Source of the DNA: Myxococcales bacterium
GTDB lineage: Bacteria; Myxococcota; Myxococcia; Myxococcales; Myxococcaceae
DNA: 64,000 nucleotides
Reading direction: 5' to 3'
NCBI GenBank assembly: GCA_016191815.1
Contig: JACPVI010000026.1
Span: 1 to 64,000, forward strand
Made by a program: the position numbers and the translations under genes. Shown piece after piece: positions 1,350 through 26,381 of the stretch. The notes beneath the pieces are model-generated. The model saw nothing but the letters and a program-made list of their open reading frames with translations. It was not told where the DNA came from and did not search any database. How positions within the stretch are numbered: the stretch's first letter is position 1; each line of letters begins with the position of its first letter.

Positions 1350-2683
1350 TGGAGGGCTCCTTCCACCCCGAGCGCCGGAGAGGGCCGGCGGGTGGCTCGG
1401 AGGAGGAGGTAGCCGGCGACTCCGGAGGCGAGCGAGCCGAGCAGGATTCCCAGCTTGGCCTCGTCGAGCAAATCGGGCTGCCCGGGAAACGCCAGCGAGG
1501 CGATGAAGAGCGCCACGGTGAAGCCGATGCCCCCCACCACCGCCACGCCGTAGAGCTGCAACTTGGGGGCGTTGCCCGGAATCGGCGCCAGGCCCAGCTT
1601 CACCGCCACGTAGGTGAAGAGGAAGATTCCCACCTGCTTGCCGAGGAACAGCCCCAGCGCCGCGCCGAGGGGGACGGCGTGGAGCAGGTACTCGAGCCTC
1701 ACTCCCGAGAGGTCCACTCCGGAGTTGGCCAGCGCGAACACCGGCATCACTCCGAAGGCCACGTAAGGGTGGAGGACATGGACGAAGCGGGTGAGGGGGG
1801 CCTCCATCTCCTCGAGCTGCTCCTCGATATGGAGGATTTCCGCCGATTCCAGCTCCTCGTCGTGCGGCTTGGCGGCGAGCTGCCCGGCGTAGTCGCGGAG
1901 CTCCCCCAAGACCTCCCGCATGTCGCGCTTGGGTCGGGCGGGGATGGCCAGCCCGAGCAGCACTCCCGCGATGGTCGGATGGATGCCGGCGCTGTGCAGC
2001 GAATACCAGAGCGCCACTCCGGCCAGCGCCCAGACCACGCCGTTGCGCACGTAGAGGCGGTTGCAGGCCACCAGCACTCCCACCAGCCCGGCCGAGGCGA
2101 AAAGCCAGCCGGTGTCCAGCCCGTGCCCGTAGAAGATCGCGATGACCAGGATGCCGCCCATGTCATCGAAGATGGCGAGCGCGGTGAGGAAGACGATCAG
2201 CGCGTGGTGGATGCGCCCCTTGAGCAGGGTGAGCACCCCGATGGCGAAGGCGATGTCGGTGGCCATGGGGATGCCCCAGCCAGGAGCGCCCGCCGTCCCG
2301 CGGTTCAAGGCGAAGTAGATGCCCGCCGGCACCACCATGCCTCCGAGAGCGGCGATGGCCGGGAGGGTGGCTCGCCCGAAGGTGCGCAGCTCTCCCATCA
2401 CCAGCTCGCGCTTGATCTCCATCCCCACCAGGAAGAAGAAGACGGCCATCAGCCCATCGTTGACGAGGAGCTGGAGCGAGAAGGCGCTCGAGTGGCTGTT
2501 CAGGCCGAGAGTGAATTGCCAGGCCAACAGCTCGCGGTAGACCTCTCCGGAGGGAGAGTTGGCCCAGACCAGCGCGGCGACCGCGGCCAGAAGGAGGAGC
2601 ATGGCGCTCGCGGCCTCGAGCTTGAAGAAGACGACGATCGGCCGGGTGACTGCTTTGAACAGGGCGATCGGCGGCGCCGGCAT
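1346..2683 (-). CDS. nhaA: Na+/H+ antiporter NhaA
   Basis: Inner-membrane antiporter that exports Na+ (or Li+) in exchange for protons, for pH and sodium homeostasis. The 445-residue product has about 12 hydrophobic segments. Family signatures are GMEIKRELVMGEL, PMATDIAFAIGVL and AIFDDMGGILVIAIF; the Asp pair in the last is the ion-binding site. I chose the ATG at 2683 because the sequence then begins with a short amphipathic stretch and the first membrane helix, as in known NhaA. An upstream GTG at 2785 would add 34 unlikely residues. A cytoplasmic insert of about 50 charged residues lies in the second half, as in many high-GC homologues. Divergent from the ligase gene at 2800. Confidence 0.93.
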   Translation of the reverse strand: MPAPPIALFKAVTRPIVVFFKLEAASAMLLLLAAVAALVWANSPSGEVYRELLAWQFTLGLNSHSSAFSLQLLVNDGLMAVFFFLVGMEIKRELVMGELRTFGRATLPAIAALGGMVVPAGIYFALNRGTAGAPGWGIPMATDIAFAIGVLTLLKGRIHHALIVFLTALAIFDDMGGILVIAIFYGHGLDTGWLFASAGLVGVLVACNRLYVRNGVVWALAGVALWYSLHSAGIHPTIAGVLLGLAIPARPKRDMREVLGELRDYAGQLAAKPHDEELESAEILHIEEQLEEMEAPLTRFVHVLHPYVAFGVMPVFALANSGVDLSGVRLEYLLHAVPLGAALGLFLGKQVGIFLFTYVAVKLGLAPIPGNAPKLQLYGVAVVGGIGFTVALFIASLAFPGQPDLLDEAKLGILLGSLASGVAGYLLLRATRRPSPALGVEGALQ

Positions 2684-2799
2684 ATTCGCGAGAGCGTAGT
2701 CCCGCGAGGGCGCCCGCTTGAGCGAAATCGGCCACGGGTTCTCGGCGACTCTCCGGTTTCTATTGGGCCCGGACGGGCTCCGCACTAGCGTCGCTCGCC

Positions 2800-3930
2800 A
2801 TGCCGCTGCTCTTCACCCCTTCTCCGGCGATGACCATTGGTGCCGAGATCGAGTTGCAGTTGCTCGATCGCGACAGCCTCGACCTCAGCCCAGCGGCGCC
2901 GAAGATCCTCGAGCGCCTGGGGGGTGAGCGGCCGAACATCAAGCCGGAGATCTTCCAGGCGATGCTGGAGATCAACAGCGGCATCTGCCGCAACGTCGCC
3001 CAGATCCGCTCCGATCTCGAGAGTGCGCTGGCCGCCGTCCGCGCGGTGTGCGAGCCCCTGAAGATCGAGCTGGCCTCGGCGGGCTCGCACCCGTTCGCTC
3101 GCCATCGGGAACGGCTCCTCTTTCCAGCCGATCGAGGCCAGTACGTCATCGATCGCAACCGCTGGGTGGGGAGAAGGCTGCAGATCTTCGGCCTTCACGT
3201 GCACGTGGGAATGCGCGACGGCGAGCACGCCTTCGCGATGATCAACGCGATGCTTCCCTACCTTGCGCACCTGCTGGCGCTCTCCGCGAGCTCGCCGTTC
3301 TGGCAGGGCTCGGACACGGGGTTGGCGTCGTCTCGCATCACCATCTTCGAGGCGCTGCCGACCGCCGGTACCCCCTGCACCTTCGAGAGTTGGCAGAGTT
3401 TCGCGAGGACCTACGAGGCGATGGTGGCCTCGGGCGCGGTCACGACCATCAAGGACATCTGGTGGGACATCCGGCCGCACCCCAGCTACGGGACGGTGGA
3501 GGTGAGGGTGTGCGACGGCCTGCCGATGCTCCGCGAGGCCGTCGCCCTCGTGGCGCTGGTCCAGACGTTGTTCGACTGGTTCGACGCCGAGCATCGCGCC
3601 GGCCGGAGGTTCTCGCCGCCGGCCTACTGGATTCTGAGGGAGAACAAGTGGCGGGCCTCCCGGTGGGGCCTCGACGCGAAGATCGTCCTCTCGGAAGACG
3701 GGCGCACCTCGCTGCTGCGCGAGGAGATTGCTGCGCTGCTCGAGTTGCTCGCGCCCCGGGCCGCCTCGCTCGGGTGCGGAGAGGAGCTCGCGTACCTCGG
3801 GGAGATGCTCCGGGGAGGCGTGAGCTACGAGCGACAACGGAAGATCTTCGCGCAGCGCGAGTCCTTCGTGGACGTCGCCCAGGCCCTGGTCGAGGAGCTC
3901 CGGGGGCAGGCGGCTCCCGCGGTGGCCTGA
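2800..3930 (+). CDS. YbdK-type carboxylate-amine ligase (GCS2 family)
   Basis: A 376-residue cytosolic enzyme of the glutamate-cysteine ligase type 2 family, which joins an amine to a carboxylate with ATP. Visible signatures are IGAEIELQLLD at residues 13-23 (metal/ATP-binding Glu residues), EIFQAMLEINSGIC, GLHVHVGM, and DIWWDIRPHPSYGTVEVRV. Length and motif order fit the family over its whole extent. YbdK members have weak glutamate-cysteine ligase activity in vitro and their true substrates are mostly unknown, so I do not assign glutathione synthesis. The ATG at 2800 is well placed. Divergent from nhaA across 116 bases, which probably holds both promoters. Confidence 0.85.
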   Translation: MPLLFTPSPAMTIGAEIELQLLDRDSLDLSPAAPKILERLGGERPNIKPEIFQAMLEINSGICRNVAQIRSDLESALAAVRAVCEPLKIELASAGSHPFARHRERLLFPADRGQYVIDRNRWVGRRLQIFGLHVHVGMRDGEHAFAMINAMLPYLAHLLALSASSPFWQGSDTGLASSRITIFEALPTAGTPCTFESWQSFARTYEAMVASGAVTTIKDIWWDIRPHPSYGTVEVRVCDGLPMLREAVALVALVQTLFDWFDAEHRAGRRFSPPAYWILRENKWRASRWGLDAKIVLSEDGRTSLLREEIAALLELLAPRAASLGCGEELAYLGEMLRGGVSYERQRKIFAQRESFVDVAQALVEELRGQAAPAVA

Positions 3931-24349: not shown

Positions 24350-24499
24350 TCAGGTCCAGCGCTGCCCGCGCGCCCAAGCCCGAAGCTCGTCCCGGAACGC
24401 GGGGTGGGCGATGTTGGCCAGCTCGGTGACCCGCTCGCGCACGCTCTTGCCGTGGAGCGAGGCCACCCCGTACTCGGTCACCACATGGTGCACCCTGCT
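24350..24499 (-). pseudogene. acetyl-CoA hydrolase/transferase, last ~49 codons only
   Basis: Read on the minus strand, this encodes HHVVTEYGVASLHGKSVRER and then IAHPAFRDELRAWARG before the stop. The Val-Val-Thr-Glu-Tyr-Gly-Val-Ala stretch with Leu-x-Gly-Lys-Ser is the C-terminal signature of acetyl-CoA hydrolase / 4-hydroxybutyrate CoA-transferase enzymes of about 430 or more residues. Homology stops at about 24500, where sequence leading into the radical-SAM gene begins. The rest of the enzyme is absent, so this is a scar left when the region to its right was replaced. Confidence 0.7.
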
Positions 24500-24553
24500 C
24501 GGAGGTTGGCCGCTTGCACACCGGCCCTGCTGTGGAGAGAATCGGCGAATCCC

Positions 24554-25729
24554 ATGGCTCCGCTGCCGGAATACCTGCGTCTCGGGAAAGGCGACACCCT
24601 GCCTCACTTGGCGGCTCCGGAAGTGGTCGGCTGGGAAACCACACTCCGCTGCAACATGCGCTGCCGCCACTGCGGCTCCACCGCGGGCGATGCGCGCAAC
24701 ATCGAGCTGAGCACCGCCGAGTGCCTGAGCCTCTGCCGGCAGATCGTGGACGTGGGGATTCCCCGGGTCTGCCTCACCGGCGGCGAGACGCTGCTCCGCC
24801 CCGACTGGCGGCTCATCCTCGAGAACCTCTTGGTGGGCGGGGTGGAGGTGGGGCTGCTCACCAATGGCTGGCTCTTCACCGAGAAGATGCTCAAGGAGCT
24901 GGCCGCCTATTCGGAGGACCGCTTCTACATCTCCATCAGCCTCGACGGGGTGGACGAGGTGCACGACGGCATCCGCTGCCTCCCCGGCTCCTTTGAGCGC
25001 GCCTTCCAGGGTGGGTTGGCGCTCAAGGAGATCGGCATCCCGGTGGCGGTCATCACCACCATGCAGAGCGCCAACCTGGACTGCCTGCCGGATTTGAGGG
25101 CGCGGCTGTTCGAGGAGCTCCAGCCCTATTGCTGGCAATTGCAAGTGGCAAACTCCTTCGGCCGGGCGGTGGAGAACGACGACTGCCGGGTGAACCAGGT
25201 GGAGTACGCCCGGGCGGCGGTCTTCGCCTGCGAGTCCCGTCGGCTCTCCAAGGGGACCAAGACCAAGGTGTACGTGGGCGACTGCCTGGGCTACCTGGGC
25301 AGCCTCGAGGGAGGCCTCCGCGACGAGCCGTGGCCAGGGTGCCAGGCCGGGCTAGAGCTGATCGGCATCCAGAGCAACGGCAACATCAAGGGCTGTCTCT
25401 CCATCATCGACGACCGTTTCGTGGAGGGGAACGCGCTGGACGAAGGCATCAGGAAGGTGTGGGATCGAGCGGGCGGCTTCGCCTTCAACCGGCGGTTCAA
25501 GGTTTCCAAACTGCGCGGGGTCTGCGCGGGGTGTCCGGTGGGCGAGCGCTGCCGGGCCGGCTGCACCGCCTCGGCGGTGTCGGTGAACGGTGCGCCCCAC
25601 GAGGCGCCTTTTTGTCTTCGGGCGGTGGAGGAGGGGAAGCTGGCCTCCGCCGCCAAACCCGCCGCCGCGCGCGGCCGAGCAGCGAAGCGAAAGAGGAGGC
25701 AGTATGCCGAAAGTAGAGCGAGTCGGTAG
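24554..25729 (+). CDS. radical SAM/SPASM peptide-modifying enzyme
   Basis: A 391-residue enzyme. The radical-SAM cluster motif is C33-x3-C37-x2-C40 (LRCNMRCRHC), followed by CLTGGETLLRP, a typical SAM-binding GGE motif. The C-terminal SPASM domain is complete: C263, then G-x4-C281, then C324-x2-C327-x5-C333-x3-C337, and C354, enough for two auxiliary iron-sulfur clusters. SPASM enzymes usually modify ribosomally made peptides or proteins by radical chemistry. No RRE-like leader-binding domain is evident. ATG 24554 starts it; the longer frame crosses the hydrolase scar. Its last 26 bases overlap the repeat protein, the obvious candidate substrate. A basic tail (KRKRRQ) encodes part of the overlap. 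Confidence 0.85.
   Translation: MAPLPEYLRLGKGDTLPHLAAPEVVGWETTLRCNMRCRHCGSTAGDARNIELSTAECLSLCRQIVDVGIPRVCLTGGETLLRPDWRLILENLLVGGVEVGLLTNGWLFTEKMLKELAAYSEDRFYISISLDGVDEVHDGIRCLPGSFERAFQGGLALKEIGIPVAVITTMQSANLDCLPDLRARLFEELQPYCWQLQVANSFGRAVENDDCRVNQVEYARAAVFACESRRLSKGTKTKVYVGDCLGYLGSLEGGLRDEPWPGCQAGLELIGIQSNGNIKGCLSIIDDRFVEGNALDEGIRKVWDRAGGFAFNRRFKVSKLRGVCAGCPVGERCRAGCTASAVSVNGAPHEAPFCLRAVEEGKLASAAKPAAARGRAAKRKRRQYAESRASR
25693..25699 (+). promoter_or_regulatory. strong ribosome-binding site of the repeat protein
   Basis: A GAGGAGG run ends four bases before the ATG at 25704, inside the end of the radical-SAM gene. It fixes the start of the repeat protein and indicates high, independent translation, as expected if the product is a substrate needed in excess of the enzyme. 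Confidence 0.7.
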
Positions 25730-26381
25730 CAAGGGGACCGCGGGCGGCGCTGGGGGAGTGGCAGCGCTCAGCGCCACGGAGCGGAACGCGATTCTGTCGA
25801 TGATCAAGTCGGAGCTGAAGCTCCAGGGAGGGGCAGACGAGTTCTCCACCGCCAAGGGCCGGAAGCTGGGCGGCCGCGCGGTGGCGCTGTACGTGGCGCC
25901 GGCCCCTGGGCGGGGCGGGGGGAGAGTGGTTCCGGAGTACATCGCCCCCAGGCCCGAGCCGGGCCCGATCCGGCCGGTGTACATCGCTCCGGCGCCGAGG
26001 CCGGGGCCGGGCGGCGGCATCGTGGCCCGCTACATCGCGCCGGGGCCGGGCATCGTGCCCAAGTACATGGTGGTGCCTCCCTGGGGCGGCATCGACGCCC
26101 ACCTGGCGCTGATCAACCGCGTCACCCGCGACGGGAAGGTGACCACCAAGGAGGCCACCCTCATCCGCAAGCTGTTCAACCGGGACATCATGGAGGCCGC
26201 GAAGGAGGGCCGGGACATCCGGCCGCAGGTGGCGCGCTACCTCCACAGGGTGCTGGACAACGTGAAGATGGACAAGGGCGCCCAGCACCTCATCTTCGGC
26301 AAGGGCGGGCCGGGCTGCACCCCGAAGCCGAGCCCCGGGCCGATCGTCCCGATGTACATGGTGGTCCGCCCCGACTTCTGA
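25704..26381 (+). CDS. Tyr-Pro repeat protein, candidate substrate of the radical-SAM enzyme
   Basis: A 225-residue protein with no signal peptide and no family I recognise. Residues 1-60 are Gly-rich with one helix (SATERNAILSMIKSELKL). Residues 61-126 carry five motifs of the form x-x-Tyr-(Val/Ile/Met)-(Ala/Val)-(Pro/Val)-x-Pro at Y63, Y79, Y93, Y110 and Y121, split by Gly/Pro spacers. Residues 130-200 form a helical domain with an EF-hand-like loop (TRDGKVTTKE) lacking two of the usual acids. A sixth motif, YMVVRP, sits at the C-terminus (Y218). Overlap with the SPASM enzyme suggests the tyrosines or neighbours are modified. Alternatively it could be a structural protein with an unrelated role. 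Confidence 0.6.
   Translation: MPKVERVGSKGTAGGAGGVAALSATERNAILSMIKSELKLQGGADEFSTAKGRKLGGRAVALYVAPAPGRGGGRVVPEYIAPRPEPGPIRPVYIAPAPRPGPGGGIVARYIAPGPGIVPKYMVVPPWGGIDAHLALINRVTRDGKVTTKEATLIRKLFNRDIMEAAKEGRDIRPQVARYLHRVLDNVKMDKGAQHLIFGKGGPGCTPKPSPGPIVPMYMVVRPDF
25884..26081 (+). repeat. five tandem YxAPxP-type motifs in the repeat protein
   Basis: Degenerate protein-level repeats at residues 61-126: LYVAPAP, EYIAPRP, VYIAPAP, RYIAPGP and KYMVVPP, spaced 11-17 residues. Tyr is always TAC, but Pro, Ala and Val codons differ between copies. The repetition is therefore held at protein level and is not a recent DNA duplication. Confidence 0.75.

Follow-up and report, generated by a model that had tools for sequence, protein, structure and literature searches.

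Which reaction is carried out by a radical-SAM/SPASM enzyme whose gene runs into that of a tyrosine-repeat protein, and is that protein its substrate? The question is raised by a locus in a 64,000-nucleotide stretch of DNA from a Myxococcales bacterium, the whole of which is referred to here as the window. A sequence-only reading of the locus had taken the repeat tyrosines or the residues next to them to be modification sites and had placed the pair in no class known to it. The locus comprises the following features.

24353-24544, reverse strand: truncated acetyl-CoA hydrolase/transferase remnant, its last ~45-60 codons (PF13336, E 3e-15), directly upstream of the enzyme gene
24554..25729, forward strand: radical-SAM/SPASM enzyme, splicease-like (kin to TIGR04103/TIGR03913), 391 aa, frame intact
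25704..26381, forward strand: repeat protein and probable substrate, 225 aa, whose orthologues adjoin orthologous enzymes in three further genomes
26082..26315, forward strand: conserved C-terminal domain of the repeat protein (residues 127-204, ~78 residues), kept in all four orthologues, with four predicted helices
26387..26770, forward strand: VOC/glyoxalase-superfamily gene, possible third member (PF00903, E 2.9e-9)

The overlapping gene pair

The enzyme carries the CxxxCxxC motif of radical-SAM proteins as C33, C37 and C40 and a complete SPASM pattern formed by C263, C281, C324, C327, C333, C337 and C354, and alignment with its relatives bears out both as they had been read from the gene. 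Forty-six residues are invariant in an alignment with 12-13 relatives, among them all Fe-S cysteines with the exception of C337, which is nearly invariant. Pfam recognises the radical-SAM domain with confidence (PF04055, E 1.9e-22) and the SPASM domain weakly. The repeat-protein gene starts at an ATG at 25704, inside the last 26 bp of the enzyme gene, and has an AGGAGG ribosome site immediately upstream, so that the overlap and separate ribosome site described earlier hold.

The repeat protein contains six motifs of the form Y-[VIM]-[AV]-[PV]-x-P in which the tyrosines are located at positions 63, 79, 93, 110, 121 and 218, and of its seven tyrosines only Y179 lies outside them. The motif count of six that had been reported is far from what composition yields, as 100,000 residue shuffles of the protein gave no motif in 99,448 cases, one in 549 and two in 3, and never more. 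The residue following the tyrosine (+1) is always V, I or M, and Tyr-Gly is absent from the protein. The codons of the repeats differ, so the repeats do not stem from a recent duplication at the DNA level. The motif region is rich in Pro and Gly. The protein belongs to no Pfam family and has a single, chance-level NCBIfam match (E 0.26); neither a nif11 nor a nitrile-hydratase-like leader was detected in the Pfam and NCBIfam searches, nor was DUF1843 in the Pfam search.

Structure prediction divides the protein in two. An AlphaFold2 model of the whole chain built with two sequences has a pLDDT of 38, low throughout, and gives the repeat part no predicted structure; the proline-rich motif part is probably disordered. 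The C-terminal domain modelled alone reaches a pLDDT of 81.6 and may possibly serve as a docking domain for the enzyme. Foldseek returned no match to it below E 4.6 and the best VIA-align hit (Z 4.5) is to an unrelated helical domain, so that no PDB match is confident and no fold name is given here. An EF-hand-like arrangement, suggested by helix-strand-helix pairs, found no profile support and was set aside.

The two genes form a linked pair. Among 195 Myxococcota genomes, true matches to the substrate profile are found in four (that of the window, G089, G138 and G193), and close relatives of the enzyme at a threshold of E <= 1e-123 (E 3e-162 to 4e-124) are confined to the same genomes; the two genes lie side by side in 4/4, which bears out the expectation that the substrate would be encoded next door and that the pair would stay together across a genome collection. 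The G089 orthologue has six KYMV-type motifs, that of G138 has three KYMV/RYMV motifs and three terminal IYILP repeats, and that of G193 has one MKYGGP together with a C-terminal YYIIAPRPP. Overall identity to G089 is 54-64%, and the six motifs are kept nonetheless. Two further matches to the substrate were discarded as products of chance or composition, one in G075 (E 1.9e-5, 33%, within a 1336-aa frame), which the substrate profile misses, and one in G179 (E 0.009), where the frame spans 78 aa and has an internal stop. A search of plasmids found no copy of the substrate. Judged by this linkage and conservation the repeat protein is very probably the substrate of the enzyme, and its conserved tyrosine motifs are likely to be the several modification sites in one protein that had been proposed.

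Relatives of the enzyme and their neighbours

When the enzyme was compared with the 18,950 models of NCBIfam, two families scored almost equally, TIGR04103 (nif11-class peptide radical SAM maturase 3) with 188.8 bits and TIGR03913 (GDL-motif peptide maturase) with 188.7 bits, followed by the next family at 146.8 bits. Both scores are far under the curated cut-offs, which are 725 bits for TIGR04103 and 591.75 bits for TIGR03913. On the strength of profiles and motif contexts the enzyme is assigned to the wider TIGR04103/TIGR03913 group found beside Tyr-motif proteins, and the claim that the pair fits no class has to be given up, since the enzyme is kin to this splicease-type group and relatives adjoin X-Tyr-Gly (XYG) repeat proteins.

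Relatives of the TIGR04103 kind at E <= 1e-50 occur in 52 of the 195 Myxococcota genomes, none of them over the family cut-off, and one of them is a second enzyme in the genome that the window comes from (G000:C11:1877-3088; TIGR04103, 606 bits). Upstream of this second enzyme a gene (L054:1033-1782) encodes a Pro-rich protein of 249 aa in which P-[LM]-Y-G-[IV] is repeated ten times and which is a strong candidate for a classical splicease substrate with several sites. The second system resembles that of the window in that an enzyme stands beside a Pro-rich repeat protein, but differs in its classical Tyr-Gly repeats, its position on another branch and a further small gene after the enzyme.

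Tyr-motif proteins recur in the neighbourhoods of about 35 relatives, with some loci lacking a clear candidate. The repeats include IAMRYGLRPP (four copies), IAMKYGLVRP (four), VAPKYGG (five) and the CDYGVPPP type (three), and further candidates are short peptides whose ends consist of several XYG units; one locus (L072) has the motifs KYMAPMP and RYAAPMP. Independent evidence of the link comes from a Nostoc plasmid, which encodes a TIGR04103 member that at 853 bits is over the cut-off and sits between a nif11 precursor ending in IALYGLPPELF and a 71-aa gene, in a plp-like arrangement. ORFs with at least three Tyr motifs make up 10/205 of the same-strand adjacent ORFs versus 4/1498 elsewhere, and two of those four are additional precursors belonging to the same cluster. 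The XYG proteins at these distant loci are presumed to be substrates. It had been held against the proposal in advance if homologues of the enzyme were linked to unrelated substrates; distant homologues do adjoin unrelated proteins, but these share the Tyr motif.

In these other systems the +1 residue is Gly and sometimes Ala or Met. Enzymes of the TIGR03913 type are accompanied by trios of DUF1843 paralogues (L052:2992-3752, L053:3162-3875), in which one aligned position after the tyrosine reads YG, YG and YM in Azospirillum and YA, YA and YG in Aureibacter; variation of +1 between Gly, Ala and Met after the same Tyr is thus natural in the group. The GDL/DUF1843 systems, whose profile gives the window enzyme a score equal to that of TIGR04103, likewise carry a Tyr motif in the peptides encoded next to the enzyme, where Tyr is followed by G, A or M. 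They differ in having three short DUF1843 peptides in place of one repeat protein, and a longer enzyme with a C-terminal extension.

At one locus (L019:4639-6195) a splicease-type enzyme is extended at its C-terminus by a fused, Cys-rich tail that carries CDYGELPP/LDYGVNPPPP repeats, which unites the enzyme and its probable substrate in one chain. Long C-terminal tails are also present in the relatives at L067-L069, L071 and L073. The neighbours of TIGR04103-type enzymes at L075-L078 are lipoprotein-like, with Tyr-Gly right after a lipobox-like Cys (MACYGAP, SACYGLP), apart from L075 which has PVYG instead.

A tree of 39 proteins, of which 37 are enzymes and two serve as outgroup rows, was built by maximum likelihood, and all three of its main branches include enzymes beside or fused to XYG proteins. 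The window enzyme and those of G089, G138 and G193 form a clade with a support of 100/100, which adjoins an enzyme with KYGG repeats through a weaker joining branch (81/35).

The flanks of the window motifs were compared with a context profile for which 11 other loci supplied the Tyr-Gly contexts, with equal weight per locus and with Tyr and +1 omitted. The six sites sum to 62.8 bits, whereas shuffled flanks average -23.9 and reach 17.8 at most, with 0/2000 as high. Against 1373 background Tyr contexts, a comparison for which the profile also included the G193 site, each site falls within the top 2.1% and three score above all; the non-motif Y179 is unremarkable.

25890..25907, forward strand: motif 1, Y63 VAPAP; background fraction with at least this score on the XYG profile, 0.021
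25938..25955, forward strand: motif 2, Y79 IAPRP; background fraction 0.0036
25980..25997, forward strand: motif 3, Y93 IAPAP, after GPIRPV (cf. splice tag PIRPLYGLPI); background 0/1373
26031..26048, forward strand: motif 4, Y110 IAPGP; background fraction 0.0087
26064..26081, forward strand: motif 5, Y121 MVVPP; background 0/1373
26355..26372, forward strand: motif 6, Y218 MVVRP, at the C-terminus of the repeat protein; background 0/1373

The splice tags of PlpXY are PIRPLYGLPI and AVAAGYGVVFP, with AVAAGYGVVFPG as an engineered GYG form (PMC10533398). The window sequences PIRPVYIAPAP and AVALYVAPAPG resemble these two tags, and together with the flank matches this gives the window sites the appearance of splicease sites whose +1 Gly has been replaced by Val, Ile or Met.

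Proposed tyramine excision and the alternatives

Known spliceases such as PlpX cut tyramine from X-Tyr-Gly targets. InterPro entry IPR026482 corresponds to TIGR04103. PlpX has been placed in this entry (PMC11002830). In both the Pleurocapsa PlpXY system and the window pair the enzyme is a radical-SAM/SPASM protein from one broad group and the substrate gene is adjacent, and their motif contexts (PIRP-X-Y, AVA-X-Y) are alike apart from +1; several sites per substrate are found among relatives. They differ in that the PlpXY target is X-Tyr-Gly, in contrast to Tyr-Met/Ile/Val in the window, that no PlpY partner, nif11/NHLP leader, protease or exporter is seen near the window pair, that the window substrate is a 225-aa protein with a C-terminal domain of its own, and that the window enzyme, far under the TIGR04103 cut-off, occupies a separate branch. 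It is therefore not a PlpX-type splicease in the strict sense, having the radical-SAM and SPASM cysteines but neither the family score nor Tyr-Gly, PlpY and leader.

Despite these differences, the sequence comparisons favour, on balance, a splicease-like enzyme that would excise tyramine from up to six sites, the Met, Ile or Val at +1 notwithstanding. According to the proposed mechanism one of the overlapping genes would encode the enzyme and the other a protein dedicated to it as substrate. For recognition the enzyme would rely on the folded domain at the C-terminus of this protein, on the P-[IV]-x-[AP]-X-Tyr-[MIV]-[VA]-x-x-P contexts in its proline-rich part, or on both. SAM would be reduced and a 5'-deoxyadenosyl radical would attack the motif Tyr or its neighbour, upon which a tyramine equivalent would be lost and the Tyr carbonyl joined to that of the residue preceding it, leaving alpha-keto-beta-amino residues at the sites. 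The product would be a single protein with up to six reactive ketoamides and, if all sites react, a total loss of about 810.4 Da. It can be argued that a bulky side chain at +1 is a question of fit and not of bond chemistry, as this residue contributes only its nitrogen to the ketoamide. Spliceotide products are reported to inhibit proteases (PMC11117315), so that one possible role is that of a multivalent protease inhibitor or trap.

A more specific proposal, advanced tentatively and with less assurance than the excision itself, is that this lineage shed the requirement for Gly along with PlpY and came to install six ketoamides, or another Tyr-derived group, under the guidance of the docking domain of the substrate. 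A diverged PlpY may be encoded elsewhere. Splicease systems with protein substrates are already known, at least by the title of Scott et al. 2022 in Chem (doi 10.1016/j.chempr.2022.09.017); to judge by this title the paper is a survey of peptides and proteins of this kind, and it may already list the non-Gly subgroup. As far as the sequences go, what is new here is the Met, Ile or Val at +1, the large substrate with a conserved C-terminal domain and the lack of a PlpY-like partner or RRE nearby.

The change at +1 could also mark a change of chemistry. Because this residue is bulky and never Gly in the window protein, the motif tyrosines might be modified by another radical reaction, such as a C-C or C-O cross-link to a neighbour, oxidation or epimerisation, which is considered unlikely although it deserves more weight than any other rival. 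SPASM enzymes perform many reactions, the window enzyme is on a well-supported branch of its own, and all six +1 residues are V, I or M. The mycofactocin maturase MftC, a radical-SAM/SPASM enzyme that likewise acts on a Tyr in a peptide, differs in having a single Val-Tyr site and in needing an RRE protein. Its reaction joins Tyr and Val (PMC8326336). With 109.1 bits versus an MftC level of 265 bits, and with no MftA or MftB recognised among its neighbours, the window enzyme does not belong to the mycofactocin family. Evidence against a different reaction comes from the KYGG of G193 within the same substrate family, from YA and YM standing in for YG in DUF1843 paralogues beside one enzyme that shows no obvious change of type, and from window flanks that match XYG contexts.

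That the repeat protein is no substrate at all is improbable. On this reading it would be Pro-rich for a structural or binding function and would do no more than share the operon, while the enzyme acts elsewhere. Only four pairs are known and the motif region is Pro/Gly-rich in composition, but the 26-bp overlap, the linkage in all four genomes, the conserved motifs and the occurrence of Tyr-motif proteins beside enzyme relatives on every main branch speak for a substrate. A decayed, non-functional remnant of an acquired cluster, as the truncated CoA-transferase remnant directly upstream might suggest, is more improbable still, given that both frames are open, the Fe-S cysteines and family-invariant residues are all kept, and six motifs are retained at only 54-64% identity to G089.

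If tyramine excision is the correct reading, it is not limited to Tyr-Gly and more sequences would become usable for splice-tag protein labelling, and the locus would be a natural case in which a single enzyme, without a partner, edits the backbone of a whole protein at several sites. With G, M, I or V at +1, the four pairs of orthologues form a natural series for probing specificity; should the chemistry differ, the same series would show how one group of enzymes switches reaction.

Surrounding genes

The gene order at the locus is enzyme, substrate, VOC. The closest counterpart of the VOC gene (52-60% identity) lies downstream of the G089 pair, where the flanks are otherwise different, and none was seen with the G138 or G193 pairs. 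At another locus (L063) a VOC-like gene is also present upstream of the substrate, which may be a coincidence. The genes around the pair encode two CotH proteins, phosphomannomutase, Uma2, a ROK kinase, a ParE/Phd-type toxin-antitoxin and a TonB-dependent receptor. In agreement with the sequence-only reading, no RiPP protease or exporter was recognised among the neighbouring genes tested and no PqqD/RRE gene on the contig of the window; two PqqD domains are encoded on other contigs of the genome. The four pairs share no small gene for a PlpY-like partner. The CoA-transferase remnant suggests a past rearrangement or insertion at the locus. Insertion into a CoA-transferase gene was considered as well; the remnant itself is real, but no counterpart of it appeared next to the ROK gene among 7 relatives, and an empty site could therefore not be demonstrated.

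Another radical-SAM/SPASM gene is found downstream of the pair in G138 and G193 (L014:2481-3557, L015:1583-2614). As a required partner it was discarded, since neither the window's genome nor G089 has a counterpart at E <= 1e-50. A relative occurs in one further genome only, and the gene is nearly absent from the rest of the phylum. In G156 an apparent B12-binding radical-SAM enzyme is fused to a relative of this second enzyme (L102:3100-5625, reverse strand), and the adjoining protein (L102, about 2476-3054, forward strand) has the repeats FAIVAPS, IGIVATPP, FGIVGPS and YAIVSFP, which makes this pair possibly another repeat-protein modification system.
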